Assembly (NCBI GenBank): GCA_951828515.1
Contig: OX639992.1
Coordinates: 3,202,217-3,266,216 of the forward strand
DNA length: 64,000 nt
DNA from: an uncultured Poribacteria bacterium
GTDB taxonomy: Bacteria; Poribacteria; WGA-4E; WGA-3G
Direction of reading: 5' to 3'
Below are positions 3,001 through 44,030 of this stretch, one piece after another. How positions within the stretch are numbered: the stretch's first letter is position 1; each line of letters begins with the position of its first letter. Made by a program: the position numbers and the translations under genes. The notes under the pieces were generated by a model. It made no database searches, was not told the origin of the DNA, and saw nothing but the letters and a program-made list of their open reading frames with translations.

Positions 3001-6000
3001 TTGATGTCACCATCGATGTCACGAATGTCAACGAGGCTCCGACATTTGCCACAACCACCGCCACGCGTTCAGTTGCGGAGAACACCGCAGCATCAACAAA
3101 TATCGGCGCAGCGGTATCCGCAACGGATCCGGATGTCGCCGGCACCAATACGGATGTTAATCCTGATGATGCGAATGTTGATGCCTTGACGTACACACTC
3201 GGTGGCACGGATGCGTCTTCGTTTGCGATTGTCGGTACAAGCGGGCAACTCCAAACCAAAGATGCCCTCGACTATGAGACCGACAACTCATACACCGTGA
3301 CAGTCTCCGTCTCTGATGGCACCGACACCGATACCATCACGGTGACTATCAATGTTACGAATATCAACGAGGCACCGACATTCCCTGGTACCACCGCCAC
3401 GCGTTCCATCGCAGAGAACACGGGGACAGGTGAAAACATCGGTGCCGCAGTGTCCGCGACGGATCCGGATGTCGCCGGGACGAACACGGATGTTAATCCT
3501 GAGGATGCGAATGTTGATGCTTTGACATACACGCTCGGTGGCACGAATGCCGCATCGTTTGATATTGTCAGCACAAGTGGGCAACTCCAAACCAAAGTCG
3601 CACTTGACTATGAGACGAAGTCCTCCTACGAGGTGATGGTCACCGTCTCCGATGGTGGCACGGATACCGATTCTATCATCGTTACTATCAACATCTTAGA
3701 CAGAACACCACCGAACGTTAGTATCACGGTGCCAACGGTCGTGCAAAATGGCGCGTTTGAGGTAACAGTCGTCTTTGATGAAGCGGTGATGGAATTTGAG
3801 CAGTCGGAACTCGTTGTGACAGGCACATCAGGATCGAGTATAACGGCATGGAATCCGCAGGACGGTGGCACGGACTATAGAGCCACGATTACACCGACGC
3901 AAACAGGGACAGCGATCTTTAAGGTTGAGGCGGGCGTCGCAGAAGATGCCGCAGAGAATCAGAACACTGCGGCGACGCAGCAAACCGTTCAAGTCAACCT
4001 CACTCGCCCAACGGTAAGTATCATGATCCCTTCAGATGCACAGAATGGCGAGTTTGAAGTGACAGTCGTTTTTGATGAAGCGGTAACTGGGTTTGAACAA
4101 AGTGAGCTCGTTGTGACAGGCACATCAGGGTCGAGTATAACGGCGTGGAATCCGCAAACCGGCGGCACCGACTATAAAGCCACGATCACACCGACCAGTG
4201 GTGGCACGGCAATCTTTAACGTCGCCGCAAATGTCGCAGAAGATACAGGTGGGAATCAGAACACTGTTGCGACACAGCAAACCGTGCAAGTCGATATGAC
4301 GAGTCCGACAGTAAGTATTACCATCCCTTCAAGCGTGCAGAACGCGCCTTTTGACGTGACGGTGGTGTTCAGTGAAGCGGTGACAGATTTCGTTCAGTCG
4401 GAACTCGCCGTCAGTGGGACATCCGGATCGAGTATAACGGCATGGAATCCGCAGGATGGCGGCACCGACTATGAAGCGACGATCACACCGACCAGTAGTG
4501 GCACGGCGATCTTTAACGTTGCCGCAAACGTCGCAGTAGACACAGCAACTAATCAGAACACTGCGGCGACACAGCAAACCGTGCAAGTCAACCTCACCCG
4601 CCCAACGGTAAGTATCACGATCCCTTCAGATCCGCAGAATGGCGCGTTTGAAGTGACAGTCGTTTTTAGTGAAGCGGTGATGGAATTTGAGCAGTCGGAA
4701 CTCGTTGTGACTGGCACATCGGGTGCGAGTATAACGACGTGGGCTCCGCAAACAGGCGGCACGGACTATAAGGCGACGATCACACCGACCAGTGGTGGCA
4801 CGGCAATCTTTAACGTCGCCGCAAATGTCGCAAAAGATACGGGTGGGAATCAGAATACCGCTGCGACACAGCAAACCGTGCAAGTCGATATGACGCGTCC
4901 GACAGTGAGTATTACCATCCCTTCAGGCGTGCAGAACGGTGCATTTGAAGTAACGGTGGTGTTCAGTGAATTGGTGACAGATTTCATTCAGTCGGACCTC
5001 GCTGTGACTGGCACATCAGGATCGAGTATAACGGCATGGAATCCGCAGGACGGTGGCACCGACTATAAAGCAACGATTACACCGACGCAAACAGGGACAG
5101 CGATCTTCAAGGTCGCCGCAAACGTCGCAGTAGACACAGCAACTAATCAGAACACTGCTGCGACGCAGCAAACCGTGCAGGTCAACCTCACTCGCCCAAC
5201 GGTAAGTATCATGATCCCTTCAGATGCACAGAATGGCGAGTTTGAAGTGACAGTGGTTTTTAGTGAAGCGGTGACGGGATTTGTTCAGTCGGAACTCGTT
5301 GTGACTGGCACATCGGGTGCGAGTATAACGACGTGGTCTCCGCAAACCGGCGGCACCGACTATAAAGCAACGATTACACCGACCAGTGGTGGCACGGCGA
5401 TCTTCAATGTTGCTGAAAATGTCGCAGAAGATACGGGTGGGAATCAGAACACTGTTGCGACACAGCAAACCGTACAAGTCGATATGACGAGTCCGACAGT
5501 AAGTATTACCATCCCTTCAAGCGTGCAGAACGCGCCTTTTGACGTGACGGTGGTGTTCAGTGAAGCGGTGACAGATTTCATTCAGTCGGACCTCGTTGTG
5601 ACTGGGACATCAGGGTCGAGTATAACGGCATGGAATCCGCAGGATGGCGGCACCGACTATGAAGCGACGATCACACCGACCAGTAGTGGCACGGCGATCT
5701 TTAACGTTGCCGCAAACGTCGCAGTAGACACAGCAACTAATCAGAACACTGCGGCGACACAGCAAACCGTGCAAGTCAACCTCACCCGCCCAACGGTAAG
5801 TATCACGATCCCTTCAGATCCGCAGAATGGCGCGTTTGAAGTGACAGTCGTTTTTAGTGAAGCGGTGATGGAATTTGAGCAGTCGGACCTCGTTGTGACT
5901 GGCACATCAGGGTCGAGTATAACGGCATGGAATCCGCAAACAGGCGGCACGGACTATAAGGCGACGATCACACCGACGCAAACGGGGACAGCGATCTTCA

Positions 6001-9000
6001 ATGTTGCGGCGAATGTTGCCGAGGACGCCGGGAGTAATGGAAATACCGCGGCGACACAGCAAACCGTGCAAGTCGATATGACGAGTCCGACAGTAAGTAT
6101 TACCATCCCTTCAAGCGTGCAGAACGCGCCTTTTGACGTGACGGTGGTGTTCAGTGAAGCGGTGACAGATTTCATTCAGTCGGAACTCGTTGTGACTGGG
6201 ACATCAGGGTCGAGTATAACGGCATGGAATCCGCAGGATGGCGGCACCGACTACAAAGCCACGATTACACCGACGCAAACGGGGACAGCGATCTTCAACG
6301 TTGCGGCGAGCGTCGCAAAAGATACTGCAGAGAATCAGAACACCGCGGCGACAGAAAAAACCGTGCAAGTCGATAGGACACCCCCGACAGTGAGTATCAC
6401 GGTCCCCTCAGGTGCGCAAAATGGAGCGTTTGACGTGACGGTTGTCTTTGATGAAGCAGTGACAGGATTTGAGCAGTCAGAGCTCGTTGTGACTGGGACA
6501 TCGGGGGCAAGTATAACAGCGTGGAATCCACAGACAGGCGACACCGACTACAAAGCCACGATTACACCGACGCAAACGGGGACAGCAATCTTCAATGTTG
6601 CGGCGAATGTTACCGAGGATGCCGGGAGTAATGGAAATACCGCGGCATCAGAGCAAACCGTGCAAGTCGATAGGACACCCCCGACGGTAAGTATCACCAC
6701 CCCTTCAGGTCCGCAGAATGGCGCATTTGACGTGACGGTGGTATTCAGTGAAGAGGTGACAGATTTCATTCAGTCGGAACTCGCTGTGACTGGGACATCA
6801 GGGTCGAGTATAACGGCATGGAATCCGCAGGATGGCGGCACCGACTACAAAGCCACGATTACACCGACGCAAACGGGGACAGCGATCTTCAACGTTGCGG
6901 CGAGCGTCGCAAAAGATACTGCAGAGAATCAGAACACCGCGGCGACAGAAAAAACCGTGCAAGTCGATAGGACACCCCCGACAGTAAGTATCACGGTCCC
7001 CTCAGGTGCGCAAAACGCGCCTTTTGATGTGACAGTGGTGTTCAGTGAAGCCGTGACCGGGTTTGTGCAGTCAGAACTCGTCGTCAGTGGCACATCGGGG
7101 TCGAGTATAACAAACTGGTCTCCGCAGACCGGTGGCACGGATTATAGAGCCACGATTACGCCGACCAGTAGCGGCACGGCGCTCTTCAATGTTGCGGCGA
7201 ATGTCGCAGAAGACGCAGCAGAGAATCAAAACACTGCGGCGACGCAGCAAACCGTGCAAGTCAACCTCACCCGCCCAACGGTGAGTATTACGACCCCTTC
7301 AGATGCGCAGAATGGTACGTTTGACGTGACAGTGGTGTTCAGTGAAGCAGTGACAGGCTTTGTGCAGTCCGAGCTTGTTGTCAGTGGCACATCGGGGGCA
7401 AGTATAACGGCGTGGAATCCGCAAACCGGTGGCACCGACTACAAAGCGACAATCACGCCGACACAGACAGGGACAGCGATCTTTAACGTTGCGGCGAGCG
7501 TCGCAGTAGACACGGGTGGAAATCAGAACACCGCTGCGACACAGAAAACCGTGCCAGTCGATAAGACGCTTCCAGCGGTAAGTATCACCACCCCTTCAGG
7601 TGCGCAGAATGGTGCGTTTGAAGTGACGGTCATTTTTGATGAAGCCGTGACGGGATTTGTGCAGTCGGAACTCGTTGTCAGTGGGACATCAGGTGCGAGT
7701 ATAACAGCGTGGAATCCGCAAAGTGGCGGCACCGACTATAAAGCCACGATTACACCGACGCAAACAGGGACAGCGATCTTCAATGTTGCGGCGAGCGTCG
7801 CAAAAGATGCTGCAGAGAATCAGAACACCGCGGCGACACAGAAAACCGTGCAAGTCGATAGGACACCCCCGACAGTAAGTATCACGATCCCCTCAGGTGC
7901 GCAAAACGCGCCTTTTGATGTGACAGTGGTGTTCAGTGAAGCCGTGACCGGGTTTGAGCAGTCAGAACTCGTCGTCAGTGGCACATCGGGGTCGAGTATA
8001 ACAAACTGGTCTCCGCAGACCAGTGGCACGGATTATAGAGCCACGATTACGCCGACCAGTAGCGGCACGGCGCTCTTCAATGTTGCGGCGAATGTCGCAG
8101 AAGACGCAGCAGAGAATCAAAACGCTGCGGCGACGCAGCAAACCGTGCAAGTCAACCTCACCCGCCCAACGGTGAGTATTACGACCCCTTCAGATGCGCA
8201 GAAGGGTACGTTTGACGTGACAGTGGTGTTCAGTGAAGCAGTGACGGGATTTGTGCAGTCGGAACTTGCAGTCAGTGGCACATCGGGCGCAAGTATAACG
8301 GCATGGAATCCACAGACGGGCGGCACCGACTATAAAGCCACAATCACGCCGACGCAGACAGGGACAGCGATCTTCAATGTTGCGGAGAATGTTGCCGAGA
8401 ATGCTGGGAGTAATGGAAACACTGCGGCGACGCAGCAAACCGTGCAAGTCGACATGATACGTCCGACAGTGAGTATTACCATCCCTTCAGGCGCGCAGAA
8501 CGCGCCTTTTGAAGTGACGGTGGTGTTCAGTGAAGCGGTGACTGGGTTTGAGCAGTCGGAACTCGCTGTGACTGGCACATCAGGGTCGAGTATAACGGCG
8601 TGGAATCCGCAAACCGGCGGCACCGACTATAAAGCGACGATTATACCGACGCAAACAGGGACAGCGATCTTTAATGTTGCGGAGAATGTTGCCGAGGACG
8701 CAGCGACTAATGGAAATACCGCTGCATCGGAGCAAACCGTGCAAGTCGATAAGACGCGCCCGACGGGCAGTCTCGAACCGCTGATAGCCGTCATCAAAGC
8801 GGATGGGACGCTCTATGATCCTGACGTTGATATATTTACCAGTACCGATCCTGATAACGATCCGGTGACATTCTCTGTGCGCATTGACTTCGGAGAAGCG
8901 GTGTCTGGGTTTGAGCAGGAGGACTTTACGATCCATCGAAGACTGACAGATGATACCTTGATTACACACTGGGAAGCAGACGCTGACGGTGAACGCTACA

Positions 9001-11262: not shown

Positions 11263-11904
11263 CTAAAATTGGCCCCTATGGCTTCAAAACCCACCCCGCC
11301 GCTGACGAGGTTTCTCACCTCGCCTCTTGAGTCTCGTAGGTTGGGTAGAACGGATGCCACCAAACCCGTAAATATCATAGAAAGCGAAGGTCGGTCCATA
11401 CACACCCCATTGATCAGAAACCGAGAGAAACCCAACGCTTTCGGCGTCAAGTGCCGGCACCTCTGCGGGTATGACGTTGGGTTTCGCTGGGGTATTGAGT
11501 GGGTATGCCGGCATGTCGTATTTGAGGCGTATTTGGCACCGCTACGTCTTCTTTTTGCGTTCCGCTCTACCCAACCTACGGGACTAAAATTGGCCCCTAT
11601 GGCTTCAAAACCCACCCCGCCGCTGACGAGGTTTCTCACCTCGCCTCTTGAGTCTCGTAGGTTGGGTAGAACGGATGCCACCAAACCCGTAAATATCATA
11701 GAAAGCGAAGGTCGGTCCATACACGCCCCATTGATCAGAAACCGAGAGAAACCCAACGCTTTCGGCGTCAAGTGCCGGGACCTCTGCGGGTATGACGTTG
11801 GGTTTCGCTGGGGTATTGAGTGGGTATGCCGGCATGTCGTATTTGAGGCGTATTTGGCACCGCTACGTCTTCTTTTTGCGTTCCGCTCTACCCAACCTAC
11901 GGGA
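11263..11904. repeat. Tandem duplication of a 321-bp unit
   Basis: Copy 1 is 11263-11583 and copy 2 is 11584-11904; I see only about two substitutions between them. Inside each unit is a roughly 250-bp element with inverted ends, GTCTCGTAGGTTGGGTAGAA at one side and its near-complement at the other, plus an inner inverted pair AAACCCAACG and CGTTGGGTTT. The near identity implies a recent duplication or an assembly artefact. Confidence 0.85.
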
Positions 11905-12129
11905 CCCGAAACCGCTAAATTGACACCTATGGTGCGGTTTGCAACCGCACCGAATGCGTCCAAATAGATGAAATTTACTGATTTTGCGTAAGTCCTGTTT
12001 CAATCAGAAATGGTATTATTTTCTGAGTTTAGGGACATGATAGGACACAATGCCAAATAACGAATCCTAAGACTGATTCTGAAAAAGCAAAAGTTTCACT
12101 GTTTGAATAAATGACGGAAATTTGATAGA

Positions 12130-21453: not shown

Positions 21454-22014
21454 TTAATCTTGTAACAGTATTAGCGGCTTCACCGAGTGCTGACGAAAGG
21501 TCGCTTCTGTAACGGTATCCTCAAAGAATGGATCAAAAAACGCGTCGGCGGTGTCCAAAAACGCTGGTAGGTTGAGTCCCATGTAATTACCCGATGTGTC
21601 GTCACATTCAACCACAACCTGTCGCAATTTATCGCGTCCGGCAGTAGAAAGCGTCCGTAACGGACGCAGCATCCGTGTATGATACTTGATGAAGGCTGCC
21701 GACACCTGAATTAACCCTTGAAGGAACAAGCGATAGGTGTCTTCTGCTTCGTGCCATAACCCTTCCCACGCCTCATGCGCCTCCCACCAATAAGCAAAGT
21801 TGTAGAGATCTACGCCGTACAGGTAATCTTCATTCTGTCTCCACATCTCTGGCGGCAAAGGTTCAGCATCGTGCTCTTCTTCCACCCCGTAACTGTGTCC
21901 AAGTGGATCCCGAATGGGGTGTGGCGTGACACCCGGTATATGGCGATACGGCGGGAACGCCTTTTGCGGACAATATCGCTGCCAATTGACATCAAAAGGT
22001 TCAGGATTTTTAAT
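21454..22014 (-). CDS. DUF309 protein, possibly with an AUU start codon
   Basis: The core YLYGVDLYNFAYWWEAHEAWE matches DUF309 (function unknown, all-helical). The first standard start codon is a GTG at 21885, but upstream codons in the same frame encode FPPYRHIPGVTPHPIRDP and LGHSYG, which is the N-terminal part normally conserved in this family. No ATG, GTG or TTG exists between that stretch and the stop at 22029-22027. An ATT at 22014 lies 5 bp after an AGGG, giving a 186-residue protein. The alternatives are a start-codon mutation or a frameshift near the 5' end. Confidence 0.75.
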   Translation of the reverse strand: MKNPEPFDVNWQRYCPQKAFPPYRHIPGVTPHPIRDPLGHSYGVEEEHDAEPLPPEMWRQNEDYLYGVDLYNFAYWWEAHEAWEGLWHEAEDTYRLFLQGLIQVSAAFIKYHTRMLRPLRTLSTAGRDKLRQVVVECDDTSGNYMGLNLPAFLDTADAFFDPFFEDTVTEATFRQHSVKPLILLQD

Positions 22015-22113
22015 TTTTCCCTGCGGTTAAACAACGTGCGCCTGAGTTATCACGTACGTTCCTTAAACCCGCCCTCCACTTCGTTACGGACTAACGTTTT
22101 TGATGCTTAGGAT

Positions 22114-23493
22114 TTACGCTCTGCCGATTCCGATGTAATGAAAACCTGCCGCTCTCGCTTCTTTCGGGGAATAAACATTGCGTCCATCAATGAGGATCGG
22201 AGTCTTCATCTGCTTCGCGAGCCTACGGAGTTCAAGCTTGTGGTAGAGTTCCCATTCAGTAACGAGCACGAGGGCATCGGCATCGTAAGGAAGTTCGTAA
22301 ACATCTTCCGTGAAAATCACTCTGTTATCGTCGGTTTCGCCGTTCCCACTTAAGGCGCGGTGTGCGTTTGCAATAGCGATCGGATCGTGTGCCCGAACTG
22401 TTGCCTCCGCTTTAATCAGTTCACGGATAATGTCAAGTGCGGGTGCTTCTCGAATGTCATCGGTGTTTGGTTTGAAAGCGAGTCCGAGGATACCAATCGT
22501 CTTACCTTTGAGTGTGCCCAATGTGCTGCGCAATTTTTCGATGACACGTTCCCGTTGACGGAAGTTGATGGTGCGCGCGGCTTTTGTAATCGGCATCTCG
22601 TATCCAGACTGTGCTGCGACCCCTAACAAAGCAGCGGTATCTTTCGGATAACAACTGCCGCCCCATCCAAGACCTGCTTGAAGAAATTGATTCCCAATAC
22701 GTCCGTCAAGTCCGATACCGCGTGCGACTTCTGTTACGTCTGCCTCAACCGCCTCACAGAGCCCCGCAATTTCATTGATAAAACTGATTTTAAGCGCGAG
22801 GAAGGTGTTCGCCGCGTATTTAATCATTTCAGCACTGTTCGGATCCGTTGTCATCATTGGAGGGAGATGGTAAGAAGATGGACGTGGAAACTCGCTCGGC
22901 GGGTCAAACGTCTGTTCGAGGATCGGTTTATAGAGGCGGCGCAAAGTATCAATTGCTTCTTCGCTGTTTGCACCGACGACGATCCGATCCGGATAGAACG
23001 CACCTTGTAACGCCAATCCCTCTTGCAAAAACTCTGGGTTTGAAGCGATGGAAACGTTTCCTCGAATCCCGCGTTCCGAAAATACCTTCTCCACAACTTC
23101 AGCGACACGTTGATTCGTGCCTATCGGGACTGTAGATTTGACAACAAGTGTGTAATGCCTATCAGGTAGACAGACTTGGGCAACCTCTTTGGCGGCTTGT
23201 TCCACGTGTTGCGTATCCGCTTCACCGTTCTTCTTCGGTGGTGTTCCCACAGCAATCAGAATCAGTTCTGCCGCCGGTACAACTTCAGCGACATTCGGTG
23301 TGAAACGGATGGTGTGCTGTACCTCTTCAAGAAGGCTTTGGATGCCGGGTTCATGAATCGGGCTTTTTCCGTCGTGCAAAAGGTTGAGTTTGCTCTCGTC
23401 TTTGTCCACCGCAGCGACATTATGATTCAGATGTGCCAGCACCACAGCCGTGGTCAAGCCGACGTATCCTGTTCCTATAATTGCAATTTTCAT
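22114..23493 (-). CDS. ugd: UDP-glucose 6-dehydrogenase
   Basis: 459 residues of the UDP-glucose/GDP-mannose dehydrogenase family. The NAD-binding MKIAIIGTGYVGLTTA is at the N-terminus, the catalytic cysteine is in GWGGSCYPKD, and the C-terminal domain has GLAFKPNTDDIREAP. It oxidises UDP-glucose to UDP-glucuronate for surface polysaccharide, consistent with the GHMP heptose-kinase-like gene upstream. Its own ribosome site is poor (GGAG about 16 bp away), and it starts one base after the stop of a 29-codon ORF, so coupling is likely. Confidence 0.95.
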   Translation of the reverse strand: MKIAIIGTGYVGLTTAVVLAHLNHNVAAVDKDESKLNLLHDGKSPIHEPGIQSLLEEVQHTIRFTPNVAEVVPAAELILIAVGTPPKKNGEADTQHVEQAAKEVAQVCLPDRHYTLVVKSTVPIGTNQRVAEVVEKVFSERGIRGNVSIASNPEFLQEGLALQGAFYPDRIVVGANSEEAIDTLRRLYKPILEQTFDPPSEFPRPSSYHLPPMMTTDPNSAEMIKYAANTFLALKISFINEIAGLCEAVEADVTEVARGIGLDGRIGNQFLQAGLGWGGSCYPKDTAALLGVAAQSGYEMPITKAARTINFRQRERVIEKLRSTLGTLKGKTIGILGLAFKPNTDDIREAPALDIIRELIKAEATVRAHDPIAIANAHRALSGNGETDDNRVIFTEDVYELPYDADALVLVTEWELYHKLELRRLAKQMKTPILIDGRNVYSPKEARAAGFHYIGIGRA

Positions 23494-36148: not shown

Positions 36149-36640
36149 TTACTGATAGACAGGAGAGGTGGCAACGCGGGAAAATAGCCGTGTGAGTTCA
36201 TCCGTTGACACACCGAGGCTCTCTTCAAGGTCCTTTTGTGCTAACCCAAGATGTTGGACACCGAGGCTCTCTTTAAATTCTTCCTGTGTCAAGCCAAAAT
36301 CACGGTAACCCTGAATGATGGTTTTTAGATACCATTTTGAAGGCGATTCAAAATCCTTCTCATACGACTCCCGCATCCTATAAAACATGACACCGTCTTG
36401 GTAGTACTTGCCGTAATAGTCGGGATAGCCTTCGTAGATATCAAGTGCCTCTTCGTGATCCTCTGTAATTTCCCAGAGTCCGCCGTGGACTGTACACCCT
36501 TCCGCACGGATAATATCGGCGTGGTATTTAAAAACAAGGCGAAATCCGTCAAGTTGGAATTTCTCTATGTGCGTGACACCCGGGCACCGCTGTTGCATGT
36601 GAGAGAGGTTCATGTTGGATCCATAAGCAAAATATATCAT
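36149..36640 (-). CDS. Gamma-glutamylcyclotransferase-like protein
   Basis: 163 residues. FAYGSNMN is the substrate-binding loop and LDIYEGYPDYYGKYY contains the likely catalytic glutamate of the GGCT/AIG2 fold. The C-terminus has two copies of a short unit, LTQEEFKESLGVQ and LAQKDLEESLGVS, which is unusual. The upstream sequence CGCAAGGAATAATTAAAAA before the ATG is shared with two other genes in the window. Confidence 0.85.
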   Translation of the reverse strand: MIYFAYGSNMNLSHMQQRCPGVTHIEKFQLDGFRLVFKYHADIIRAEGCTVHGGLWEITEDHEEALDIYEGYPDYYGKYYQDGVMFYRMRESYEKDFESPSKWYLKTIIQGYRDFGLTQEEFKESLGVQHLGLAQKDLEESLGVSTDELTRLFSRVATSPVYQ

Positions 36641-36852
36641 TTTTTAATTATTCCTTGCGGAGGAATCACGTGCGTTTGAACTTTTACGGGCGTTGTTTAT
36701 ATCCGCTCTCCATTCCATTACAAGCTACGGGTTTTGAGACTATCTTAACGCAAGGTGCCACCTAAAAAACCAAGCACGGAATGAAATGGAGTGCAACTCG
36801 AACACGGGAAACACGCAGATACAAACAGCCGATACTTATCCGCAAGGGATAA

Positions 36853-37602
36853 TTAAAAATGTGACTTCAATCTTCCCCACAGCACCGGGAGTTTACCTGA
36901 TGGCTCGACGGCAAATGCGGTGAACATGATACCGTCGTTCATAATATCCTGAACTTCATCTTCGGTGAGTCCATCGTTGAAGAGACCAACTTCATCCATG
37001 ATAGTGGCAGAGAGAAAACCGGTTCCTTTATCAGTCGCGAGCCACGCCGTCTGATCCTGATCTTGGAGTTGGAACTTCGGCACCTTTTGTGAGACTTCCT
37101 CTTCGCCGTTGACGTAGATTGTGCAGGTTTCTCCGTCATAGACATTGGCGACATGATACCAGGTTCCATCTTTGACGGTCACGCCACTGGCGATATCCCA
37201 AGTATTCGTCCAACTTCGGAGGAGATTTCCACCGTTTTTGTAAGGAACATAGCGGTTGTTGCTCTGATCCCATATCGAGAAATAGTTCTGTTGACCGCCG
37301 ATGTCGGTAAAATTTATCCAGAGGGTGAAGGTCACTTTATCTTCGATAATGCCTTTACCGAGCGGGATGGTGACTGTTCCACCCTTTTTGATTTCAAGGG
37401 CACCATCGACCTTGCCTTTTGCCCATTCCCCCCGCGTAATCGTACCTTTACGTCCGTTTTCAGACGCGTCTTCAGCAACATCGCCCTTGCCTTCGTCCAA
37501 TAACCAAATGCCAACAATCCTGTCTGGATCTATCTCGGCTTGACTATAACCGACGACCAGACTTAGCGCGAGTATCGTGCAGACAAATATTTTTATTTTC
37601 AT
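36853..37602 (-). CDS. Secreted LamG/concanavalin-fold protein with WG C-terminal tail
   Basis: 249 residues: a signal peptide (MKIKIFVCTILALSLVVGYS, cut after SQA), then a jelly-roll domain with VGIWLLDEGKGDVAEDASEN, GALEIKKGGTVTIP, HVANVYDGETCTIYVNGEE and IMDEVGLFNDGLTEDEV. The end reads KLPVLWGRLKSHF, a tail shared with three other secreted proteins here. AAGGAG precedes the ATG. It probably binds a carbohydrate or surface partner. It stands alone upstream of tRNA-Leu. Confidence 0.85.
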   Translation of the reverse strand: MKIKIFVCTILALSLVVGYSQAEIDPDRIVGIWLLDEGKGDVAEDASENGRKGTITRGEWAKGKVDGALEIKKGGTVTIPLGKGIIEDKVTFTLWINFTDIGGQQNYFSIWDQSNNRYVPYKNGGNLLRSWTNTWDIASGVTVKDGTWYHVANVYDGETCTIYVNGEEEVSQKVPKFQLQDQDQTAWLATDKGTGFLSATIMDEVGLFNDGLTEDEVQDIMNDGIMFTAFAVEPSGKLPVLWGRLKSHF

Positions 37603-40258: not shown

Positions 40259-41158
40259 TTAGCGATTGCGCTGAATCAAGCCGGTTCTGTGCAGCTCGTG
40301 TAAAATAAAAGGTTCTATTGATGTATCGCTTTTAAGTTGGGCGTAGCCAATTCCTTGGTCGGTACAGAAGCGTTGCAAGGTGTCGCAAAATGTCTGTTGC
40401 TGGTTCTGGTATTGCGAGAGCGTTTCGGGGTTAATTGTAACGGCTCTCGTTTCACCCGTTTCAGCATCTGCTACCAACCAGTCCCCTCCAGTAAGTGTGT
40501 TTTCCAAGTATGCCTGTGGGTTCACCTCTTCTGGACTTGTCAGGTGGATGGCTGTGAGTGAGAAACCGCGTCCTGCGAGCAATTTGAAGCCCTGTTCGTA
40601 ACCATTCGGATCCAAAAAATCGGAAAGGATGACAACCGCGCACGGGTGTCGTTGATACATCGGAAGCTGCCTGAGACATTCCGTCAGCCGCGTCTGCCCA
40701 TCTGCAACAATTGTGGTCAAAACCTTTGTGAGACGTGAAAATTGTGATGTACTCGATGCGGGTGGTAGTGCCGCGGAGAGCCGTTCGGCACAGGTATAGA
40801 CGGCAACACTATCGGCGTGTCCCAAAGCGATATAGCCTAACGCCGCAGCGATCTGTTTGGCGCACGTTAACTTGGTGGGTGAACCAAATGCCATGGAACG
40901 ACTGTTATCAATCAGGAGTGCAAGCGGTAATCCCTCGTCAGCGTGGAAGAGTTTGATAAAGAGTTTCCCCAAACGGGCGTAGATGTTCCAATCGACGTGC
41001 CGTAGGTCGTCGCCGGGTTCATAGACACGATAATCGGCAAATTCCATACCTACACCCCTGTTCAGACTCCGGCGTTCACCTCTGAATTTACCTCGAAATG
41101 AACGGTTTGATCGGATATGGAAGGGTTCAAGTTGCTTCAGGAATTGCGGTGTCAGCAT
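40259..41158 (-). CDS. DUF58 domain protein
   Basis: 299 residues. RGVGMEFADYRVYEPGDDLR, then VDWNIYARLGKLFIK is the DUF58 signature, followed by a VWA-like LALLIDNSRSM with a partial MIDAS motif (DxSxS). DUF58 proteins work with MoxR ATPases in envelope-related assembly. The only MoxR gene here is 16 kb away. It probably forms an operon with the macrodomain gene. Confidence 0.9.
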   Translation of the reverse strand: MLTPQFLKQLEPFHIRSNRSFRGKFRGERRSLNRGVGMEFADYRVYEPGDDLRHVDWNIYARLGKLFIKLFHADEGLPLALLIDNSRSMAFGSPTKLTCAKQIAAALGYIALGHADSVAVYTCAERLSAALPPASSTSQFSRLTKVLTTIVADGQTRLTECLRQLPMYQRHPCAVVILSDFLDPNGYEQGFKLLAGRGFSLTAIHLTSPEEVNPQAYLENTLTGGDWLVADAETGETRAVTINPETLSQYQNQQQTFCDTLQRFCTDQGIGYAQLKSDTSIEPFILHELHRTGLIQRNR

Positions 41159-41160
41159 TC

Positions 41161-41250
41161 TTTTGATTATACCTTGCGGGGGAACAGCAGGATTCGGAAG
41201 TTGACGATTTTTTGATTAGTATCCGCCTGTGCCGGTGTTGCGGGCTTGCG
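41161..41250. repeat. Leader-type repeat L, copy 1
   Basis: About 85 bp upstream of the DUF58 gene resembles 42429-42515 upstream of the nitrilase gene (shared words: ATTATACCTTGCGGG, TTGACG, ATCCGCCTG and CCGTTGTTGC-like). A third, partial copy is at 42546-42597. On the minus strand it ends CGCAAGGTATAATCAAAAGA immediately before the ATG. Confidence 0.6.
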
Positions 41251-41600: not shown

Positions 41601-42428
41601 TTAGCGTAATCGGTCAATCGTCTTCCGATAGCGGGTTTCCATCTCAGGTCCTTGGGACTGCAAGTACGCCTGTTCCGAATGACGCGCTGCCTCGGTCGAA
41701 GGGAGAGTTGGGATGTCAATGTCTGCCGTACTGATCTGGTCATTGCCCCATTTATATGCGACAATTTCACCTTTGCTGATGATGAGGTTCATGCCGACAT
41801 TCGCTTCCACAATCGGCACGCCATTTTCACGCGCTCTGGCGAGTACGTTCCGATTCTGTGCCTTACCTTTCGAGCCATAGGAGGGAATTAGGAGAAACTG
41901 TGCACCGTCTAAAACCAATGTGCGCGCTATCAGCGGATTCCACCTATCGTTGCAGATTAAAATGCCGGCACGCCCAAAGGGGGTATCAAACGCACGAATC
42001 GTTTCGCCGATGCAATTGAAGTTCCACGACGGATGTGTTCCTTCGGCGAATTGCGTTTTGTGATAGGTGCCGCAAATATCTCCATTGGCATCAATAAACA
42101 CAGCGGAATTATAGACAGAAGCAGTCCCGCACTGTTCAGCGAACCCGAAACAGAGACAGGTTTTGAGCTGGCGTGCCAACCGACGGAAGCGGCGGATATA
42201 CACACCATCAAGTGGCTCCGCGATCTCAAGCATCGCTTCTGGTGTGGCTTTGCCTTCGATGACATCCATCACGACATAACCCTCAAGGACCCCCTCTGTC
42301 GCCAAAATCAGTTGTGGGGTATCCTTGGCAGCCTCAACGAAGAAAGCCTCCAGCTTCTCAGCATTGGAGGCTTTATCCCATTTGGTAGGTTTCAACGAAA
42401 TTGCGGAGACCTTGATTGACGCATACAT
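41601..42428 (-). CDS. Carbon-nitrogen hydrolase (nitrilase superfamily)
   Basis: 275 residues. The triad is seen as E in LATEGVLEG, K in TYHKTQF and C in ILICNDRWNP. It is only distantly similar to the nitrilase-type protein at 13046-13888 and lacks its partner amidohydrolase. Substrate unknown; cytoplasmic. The upstream repeat L supplies either a distant AAGG ribosome site or a TATAAT six bases before the ATG. Confidence 0.88.
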   Translation of the reverse strand: MYASIKVSAISLKPTKWDKASNAEKLEAFFVEAAKDTPQLILATEGVLEGYVVMDVIEGKATPEAMLEIAEPLDGVYIRRFRRLARQLKTCLCFGFAEQCGTASVYNSAVFIDANGDICGTYHKTQFAEGTHPSWNFNCIGETIRAFDTPFGRAGILICNDRWNPLIARTLVLDGAQFLLIPSYGSKGKAQNRNVLARARENGVPIVEANVGMNLIISKGEIVAYKWGNDQISTADIDIPTLPSTEAARHSEQAYLQSQGPEMETRYRKTIDRLR

Positions 42429-42597
42429 TTTTTAATTATACCTTGCGGGAGAACGACGGCGTTAGAAATTTGACGGTTTTCGATCAGCATCCGCCTGCGC
42501 CGTTGTTGCAGGCTCCGTTTTTGGTATCCCTAAGAATACAATCCTGTTATAATTATACCTTGCGGGAGAACAAGGGAATTAGGAATTTGACGGCTTA
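42429..42597. repeat. Leader-type repeat L, copies 2 and 3
   Basis: Copy 2 (42429-42515) is directly upstream of the nitrilase ATG. A shorter copy (42546-42597) begins ATTATACCTTGCGGGAGAAC with no gene start attached. Confidence 0.6.
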
Positions 42598-43715: not shown

Positions 43716-44030
43716 GCTGTTTCTCCCTTTCGACAAGTTATTTGTTAGTATGATATTAGCAAATACAATGCCAACTCTAAAAGCCTGTTTCGGCGTGAAT
43801 TCTTGGAATTCAACGGGTAATTGCGTCAAAAACTGAACGCTATTGTCCATAATCTGAACATTTTAATTTACCTTGCGGTTAAAAACCGTAGGTCAGCGAT
43901 TCGACGTGCCTTCCTCAAGAGTTGAAGAAATTGGGGAAATACCCTATCAAAAACCCCCAGCAAAAACCCTGCGCCTGCTTCGCAGTGAGAATGCAGGCTT
44001 ACGGTTTTGAAACTAACGAAGAAATCGCGC
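43716..44030. other. Intergenic, repeat fragments only
   Basis: I see no supported gene. Around 43860 there is a partial CCTTGCGGTTAAAAACCG hairpin related to repeat L, and around 43980 a GCTTCGCAGTGAGAAT word also present near 10953. Confidence 0.5.

Follow-up and report, generated by a model that had tools for sequence, protein, structure and literature searches.

AUU start codons are described for infC and pcnB of E. coli (the second printed as pncB) and inferred for lepA of B. burgdorferi and B. licheniformis (excerpts of PMC1780047). An AUU start is also given for PncA of B. burgdorferi, encoded by pncA (bbe22) (excerpts of PMC13398362). In S. aureus, cvfC1 starts with AUU, and this start is reported to be conserved among staphylococci; AUA starts are given for infC and ccpN in the same source (excerpts of PMC13009471). 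Going by these excerpts, AUU is the start of a conserved protein in infC, pcnB, pncA and cvfC1, as it would be in the DUF309 gene considered here. For those four genes, however, AUU is treated as a feature of the single gene, whereas here it comes from a dispersed repeat whose tail stands at unrelated genes. The cvfC1 start further differs in that it is said to carry a very strong, extended Shine-Dalgarno motif (excerpts of PMC13009471), whereas that of DUF309 is short and close. Within the excerpts of open-licence literature covered, on Poribacteria and the repeat, on AUU starts and on DUF309, no description was found of this repeat or of any repeat that supplies an AUU start.

The DUF309 gene lies in the window, the whole 64-kb stretch of DNA that was analysed, which is part of a 5.85 Mb genome held on a single contig. 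Its closest named relatives are in Candidatus Poribacteria MAGs, and the protein matches PF03745 in Pfam over residues 65-114 with 58.9 bits, the cut-off being 27. The features of the gene and its start region are as follows.

21454..22014 (-): DUF309 gene (PF03745), read from the ATT, 186 aa plus stop
21883..21885 (-): GTG, the first standard in-frame start of DUF309, rejected as the start
22012..22014 (-): ATT, the proposed start codon of DUF309, on the evidence of sequence, species comparison and selection on the frame
22019..22022 (-): AGGG, a Shine-Dalgarno-like element 4 nt from the ATT, from the sequence
22027..22029 (-): in-frame TAA upstream of DUF309, within the repeat, from the sequence
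22009..22026 (-): repeat tail CCGCAGGGAAAAATTAAA (consensus CCGCAAGGNANAATTAAA), found by pattern search
22009..22095 (-): whole repeat copy, made up of a 5' hairpin (GTTAGTCCGTAACGAAGTGGAGGGC), a variable middle and the tail, with an approximate 5' border placed by eye
22114..23493 (-): upstream gene of the UDP-glucose/GDP-mannose dehydrogenase family, by profile match

On the minus strand the frame runs from TAA (22029-22027) through CCG CAG GGA AAA to ATT (22014-22012), then AAA AAT CCT GAA and onward to GGG GTG (21885-21883). The first-pass annotation had stated that no ATG, GTG or TTG occurs between this TAA and the GTG, and that FPPYRHIPGVTPHPIRDP and GHSYG are encoded before the GTG; reading the frame bears out both statements. 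It was also right that AGGG precedes the ATT, but the gap is 4 nt rather than the 5 bp that it gave. The ATT is the sole near-cognate codon among the first codons after the TAA. A frame of such length with no start codon is unremarkable taken alone. The state stands above chance here because the stretch encodes conserved protein and because the same state recurs across species.

What the first-pass annotation overlooked is the source of the ATT: this codon closes a copy of a dispersed repeat. The repeat unit, as seen in 2.464 Mb of the genome, is about 90 bp long. It consists of a GTAG-type hairpin, for which GTAGCCTGCAACAACGGCGCAGGC and GTAGCCCGTAATGAAATGGAGGGC are common forms, followed by a variable middle and by the tail CCGCAAGG-NANAATTAAA. 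The same 2.464 Mb hold 141 hairpins of three forms, 125 of which are followed by a tail within 110 nt. Some copies of the repeat are tandem with a period of 21 bp. Genome-wide, CCGCAAGGNANAATTAAA has 412 matches with at most one mismatch and 519 with at most two, against 0 and 8, respectively, for a reversed control. The tail was matched in 49 of the 97 genomes examined. Within the genus, 37 of 38 genomes have it, their copy numbers ranging from 1 to 487; of the 59 others, 12 have it, in one to three copies. In the window, the pattern CCGCARGGNAANATTAAA occurs seven times at up to two mismatches, with 0.04 occurrences expected. Besides the copy at DUF309, pattern search gives the following tails.

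36643..36660 (-): repeat tail, followed by a 163-codon ORF with its ATG at 36640
36840..36857 (+): repeat tail in divergent orientation to the copy at 36643-36660, with no long ORF after it
41162..41179 (-): repeat tail, followed by a 299-codon ORF with its ATG at 41158
42431..42448 (-): repeat tail, followed by a 275-codon ORF with its ATG at 42428
42548..42565 (-): repeat tail that no long ORF directly follows
43861..43878 (-): repeat tail, followed by a 415-codon ORF with its ATG at 43850

The two divergent tails lie about 180 bp apart, and only the one on the minus strand is followed by a long ORF. Elsewhere in the genome, a tail on the minus strand at G000:C1:2372169 is embedded, in frame, in a very long open frame, with more than 4.6 kb open upstream. 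The tail on the plus strand at G000:C1:3767283 is mutated to CCGCATGG, which provides an ORF with an in-frame ATG; this ORF reads MEKLKGVILAGG and is, by eye, like a sugar nucleotidyltransferase. The window also holds repeats of other kinds. Some ten tandem copies of a 72-bp unit, recognised by eye as a leucine-rich repeat, occupy positions 84-836, and a 297-bp unit (99 codons) is repeated in tandem about 17 times at 3743-8764, as part of a strongly repetitive region that runs from about 1.3 kb of the window onward. A 321-bp unit occurs twice at 11263-11905 with 99% matches, a recent tandem duplication.

Copies of the repeat tend to stand before genes. An ATG-started ORF of at least 100 codons begins beside the tail at 111 of 206 last copies in the 2.464 Mb, compared with 130 of 4000 random places. 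For the 157 last copies with a long ORF, the first start lies at +6 to +9 from the A of the ATT in 99 and at exactly +8 in 72. At DUF309 the repeat lies between the UDP-glucose dehydrogenase gene and codon 4 of the frame, as numbered in the species that have no repeat, and it stands where these have their ATG-GAC-ACT-type start, which is missing here.

The consensus fold of the repeat contains the 5' hairpin and a CC-GCAA-GG hairpin only. Beyond these, no stem gained firm support in column-pair or permutation tests. Over 191 non-redundant copies, the mean longest helix in the variable middle is 4.16, compared with 4.12 +/- 0.06 on permutation and 4.08 +/- 0.05 on permutation within groups. Rfam gave no match at the gathering score in the window. 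At 11 further loci with copies, the copies themselves had no Rfam match with an E of up to 1; the one match found there (E 0.56) lies below its gathering score and away from the repeat copies.

REP elements, which are associated with RAYT transposases, have GTAG at the foot of the hairpin as their signature. The present repeat is like them in having GTAG at the hairpin foot, in its dispersal in many copies, and in that the genome has Y1 transposase genes (six Y1_Tnp matches); it differs in its long tail tied to translation starts. The hairpin-plus-tail unit was not found in the 1.5 kb flanks of the four Y1_Tnp loci examined, out of the six, where there are loose matches to the first bases of the hairpin only.

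The DUF309 gene is present in all 38 genomes of the genus, and its start region was taken from gene-search loci for 30 of them and from contigs of relatives with agreeing coordinates for the other eight. In 19 of the 38 species this codon is ATT, with no in-frame standard start back to the stop. Three more (L002, L003 and L006) have the ATT together with a GTG 13 codons upstream, inside the repeat and preceded by GGAG, and L006 has an additional ATG 9 codons upstream of the ATT. The repeat is absent in 15 species, which start with ATG-GAC-ACT or similar three codons earlier. The remaining species, L026, has an ATG exactly at the codon of the ATT. The first-pass annotation had named an ATG at this codon in sister strains as what would speak against its proposal; such an ATG is found in a single one of the 38 species, and half of the species share the ATT with no standard start. 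The Shine-Dalgarno-like element before the ATT is AAGG in the other 18 AUU species and AGGG in the window.

The stretch between the ATT and the GTG shows the marks of a translated sequence in these 19 species. Counted over codons -17 to +24 of the anchored alignment, from the start region to the position of the GTG, there are 28, 19 and 197 differences from the commonest codon at codon positions 1, 2 and 3. Pairwise codon differences in frame are 2248 synonymous and 548 non-synonymous, whereas the two shifted frames of the same species give ratios of 163:2824 and 197:2750. It follows from this in-frame purifying selection that the stretch before the GTG is translated, with AUU as the plausible start. 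In both a DUF309 tree and a four-gene tree, each midpoint-rooted and with some weak nodes, the AUU species fall in separated clades intermixed with repeat-free ones; the AUU state has therefore been either inherited, passed on through recombination or acquired on more than one occasion.

The protein encoded by this stretch is also conserved more widely. An alignment of 38 DUF309 sequences, mostly from Poribacteria and Nitrospira with a few others, has 24 invariant columns, and 10 of these precede the GTG (residue 44), a modest excess over the share expected from length (p = 0.03). In several Nitrospira homologues the codon aligned with the ATT is ATG or GTG. The AlphaFold model gives block-mean pLDDT of 86-94 for residues 1-30 and pLDDT below 50 for residues 35-47. 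The N-terminal arm that would be made from the ATT is conserved and, for residues 1-30, predicted to be ordered. The DUF309 structures 2ijq and 2cwy/2cxd, whose core is matched by sequence here, are of hypothetical proteins; their matches start at profile positions 62 and 75, and the N-terminal arm lies outside them.

DUF309 probably starts at the AUU of the repeat tail, with the repeat standing in place of the usual ATG-type start. The first-pass annotation had proposed AUU, and the proposal gains from the near-cognate nature of the ATT, from the ATG or GTG of Nitrospira at the aligned codon and from the ATG of L026. Translation would start at the ATT of the tail, the AAGG or AGGG of the tail would act as a weak, closely spaced Shine-Dalgarno sequence, and initiation at AUU would give the full-length DUF309 protein, probably at a reduced rate. 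Expression of DUF309 is probably low, given that a Shine-Dalgarno spacing of 4 nt is short. The same spacing of AAGG and ATT counts against the putative AUU start: in the commonest class of copies (72/157) the distance from AAGG to the start codon is 12 nt, which suits a start later than the ATT. Conservation of the ATT alone is no proof of its use, because the ATT belongs to the repeat consensus.

Since the ATT is constant in the repeat, the identity of the codon is inseparable from its position at the tail. This constancy, along with the short spacing, leaves some room for the tail itself to position the ribosome, with initiation at another codon of CCG-CAR-GGN-AAN-ATT-AAA or independent of codon identity. 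That is improbable, given that L026 has its ATG at exactly this codon, that the codon there is the near-cognate AUU in the other species, and that the variable middle gave no conserved structure in the tests described above. It is less probable still that DUF309 starts at the GTG at 21885 with the preceding stretch untranslated. The GTG is the first standard start codon in frame, but it was rejected on account of the purifying selection and the invariant residues upstream of it; moreover, just six of the 19 AUU species have a standard start at the aligned codon, and 11 have no ATG, GTG or TTG from the ATT through that codon. In one species, L030, translation could begin at a GTG that lies nine codons downstream of the ATT, which counts against the AUU there.

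Ribosomes might instead begin at a start codon of another frame and slip by -1 on A AAA AAC, or they might read through the TAA. In 11 of the 19 species the +1 frame has a TTG and is open across the ATT, in 14 AAAAAAC follows the ATT, and nine have both. Eight species, however, have no start in the +1 frame that reaches the ATT, the species of the window has no heptamer, and in all 19 the TAA within ATTAAA closes the remaining frame. Read-through is opposed by the codons before the in-frame TAA, which are not conserved, and entry by either route is very unlikely. Viewed in one genome alone, the startless ATT could be damage to the gene or an error of assembly, and the first-pass annotation had offered a mutation as the other option and sequencing error as what would overturn its proposal. 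With the same startless ATT in 19 species from separate assemblies, and with the frame under purifying selection, neither damage nor error is credible to any real degree, and initiation at the AUU of the repeat tail is the preferred reading.

The same question arises at other genes led by the repeat. Among the 157 repeat-led ORFs, 17 lack ATG, GTG and TTG in the stretch that begins 5 nt before the ATT and ends 45 nt after it; 13 of these 17 are in the frame of the ATT. This excess is no proof of AUU use, because the tail leaves the ATT frame open, while the TAA within ATTAAA always closes the third frame and the second is often closed. When two of the 13 are set aside (974709, which runs into a stop, and 2372169, inside the long open frame), 8 of the remaining 11 have an in-frame ATG within the upstream open stretch, compared with 19 of 113 other copies (p = 0.0002). 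The repeat thus often brings an internal ATG, and the frame bias of the startless genes was rejected as proof of AUU use on both grounds.

An in-frame ATG upstream led to the rejection as AUU genes of queG, cobA and a nucleotide-sugar dehydrogenase gene, and of MurQ-, DUF983-, PhyH- and Gfo/Idh-like genes, these last named by eye. The trpB gene was rejected too, with an ATG 13 codons upstream in 14 of the 17 species flagged as bearing the repeat. Of the remaining flagged species, one has an ATG 12 codons upstream and two have an ATG at the codon of the ATT, which is also where most repeat-free species have theirs. The internal ATG of trpB is preceded by GGAG in most flagged species but not in this genome. 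Those of the 11 that have no upstream in-frame ATG are DUF309, era and tsaC, the last of which has an upstream in-frame GTG.

For era, 30 species were inspected of the 36 with a match. The repeat is absent in 27 of these, which have an ATG three codons upstream, and present in three: this genome and L263, neither of which has an in-frame standard start, and L261, with an ATG 12 codons upstream. The tail at era in this genome is mutated to CCGCAAAG. A desulfurase-like gene, whose family matches are below curated cut-offs, was likewise inspected in 30 of 36 species. It is outside the 17 because its ATG lies at +39. Seven of the 30 species have the repeat. In this genome, L290 and L292 there is no standard start before an ATG at codon 14, and the residues that precede this ATG are conserved; in the other four an in-frame ATG lies upstream. 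For most repeat-free species the codon found 12 codons upstream is GTG or TTG, rather than ATG. Judged by their sequences, era and the desulfurase-like gene resemble DUF309 in that the repeat appears to have left an ATT with no standard start upstream. Other repeat-bearing genes have apparent solutions other than AUU, either a change of ATT to ATG at the codon itself, as in L026, or a standard start inside the repeat, as with the DUF309 GTG of L002, L003 and L006 and the internal ATG of trpB.

The infC gene of this genome (G000:C1:2683956-2684459, L353) has no ATG, GTG or TTG from the upstream stop to a TTG that lies 16 codons into the conserved match. An ATA follows GGGGGTG, and this ATA may be the infC start. 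Near-cognate starts of infC are known elsewhere (excerpts of PMC13009471 and PMC1780047), and for that reason control of the DUF309 AUU by IF3 is possible.

A tentative and rather doubtful extension is that the repeat acts as a mobile module for translation initiation. Its hundreds of copies would supply ribosome entry sites to genes across the genome and, wherever a copy has taken the place of a gene's own start, would install AUU or an internal AUG as the new one; this would hold even for era, an essential gene in well-studied bacteria. If so, the genus would carry a standing set of AUU-started, possibly IF3-sensitive genes derived from one repeat family. Gene callers restricted to ATG, GTG and TTG would truncate or misplace proteins with AUU starts. 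Non-AUG starts such as AUU are treated as rare features of single genes; in the present case they seem to be generated at unrelated genes by a dispersed repeat. As the putative AUU of DUF309 is kept in 19 species, the cost and use of an AUU start are open to study through orthologues with and without the repeat.
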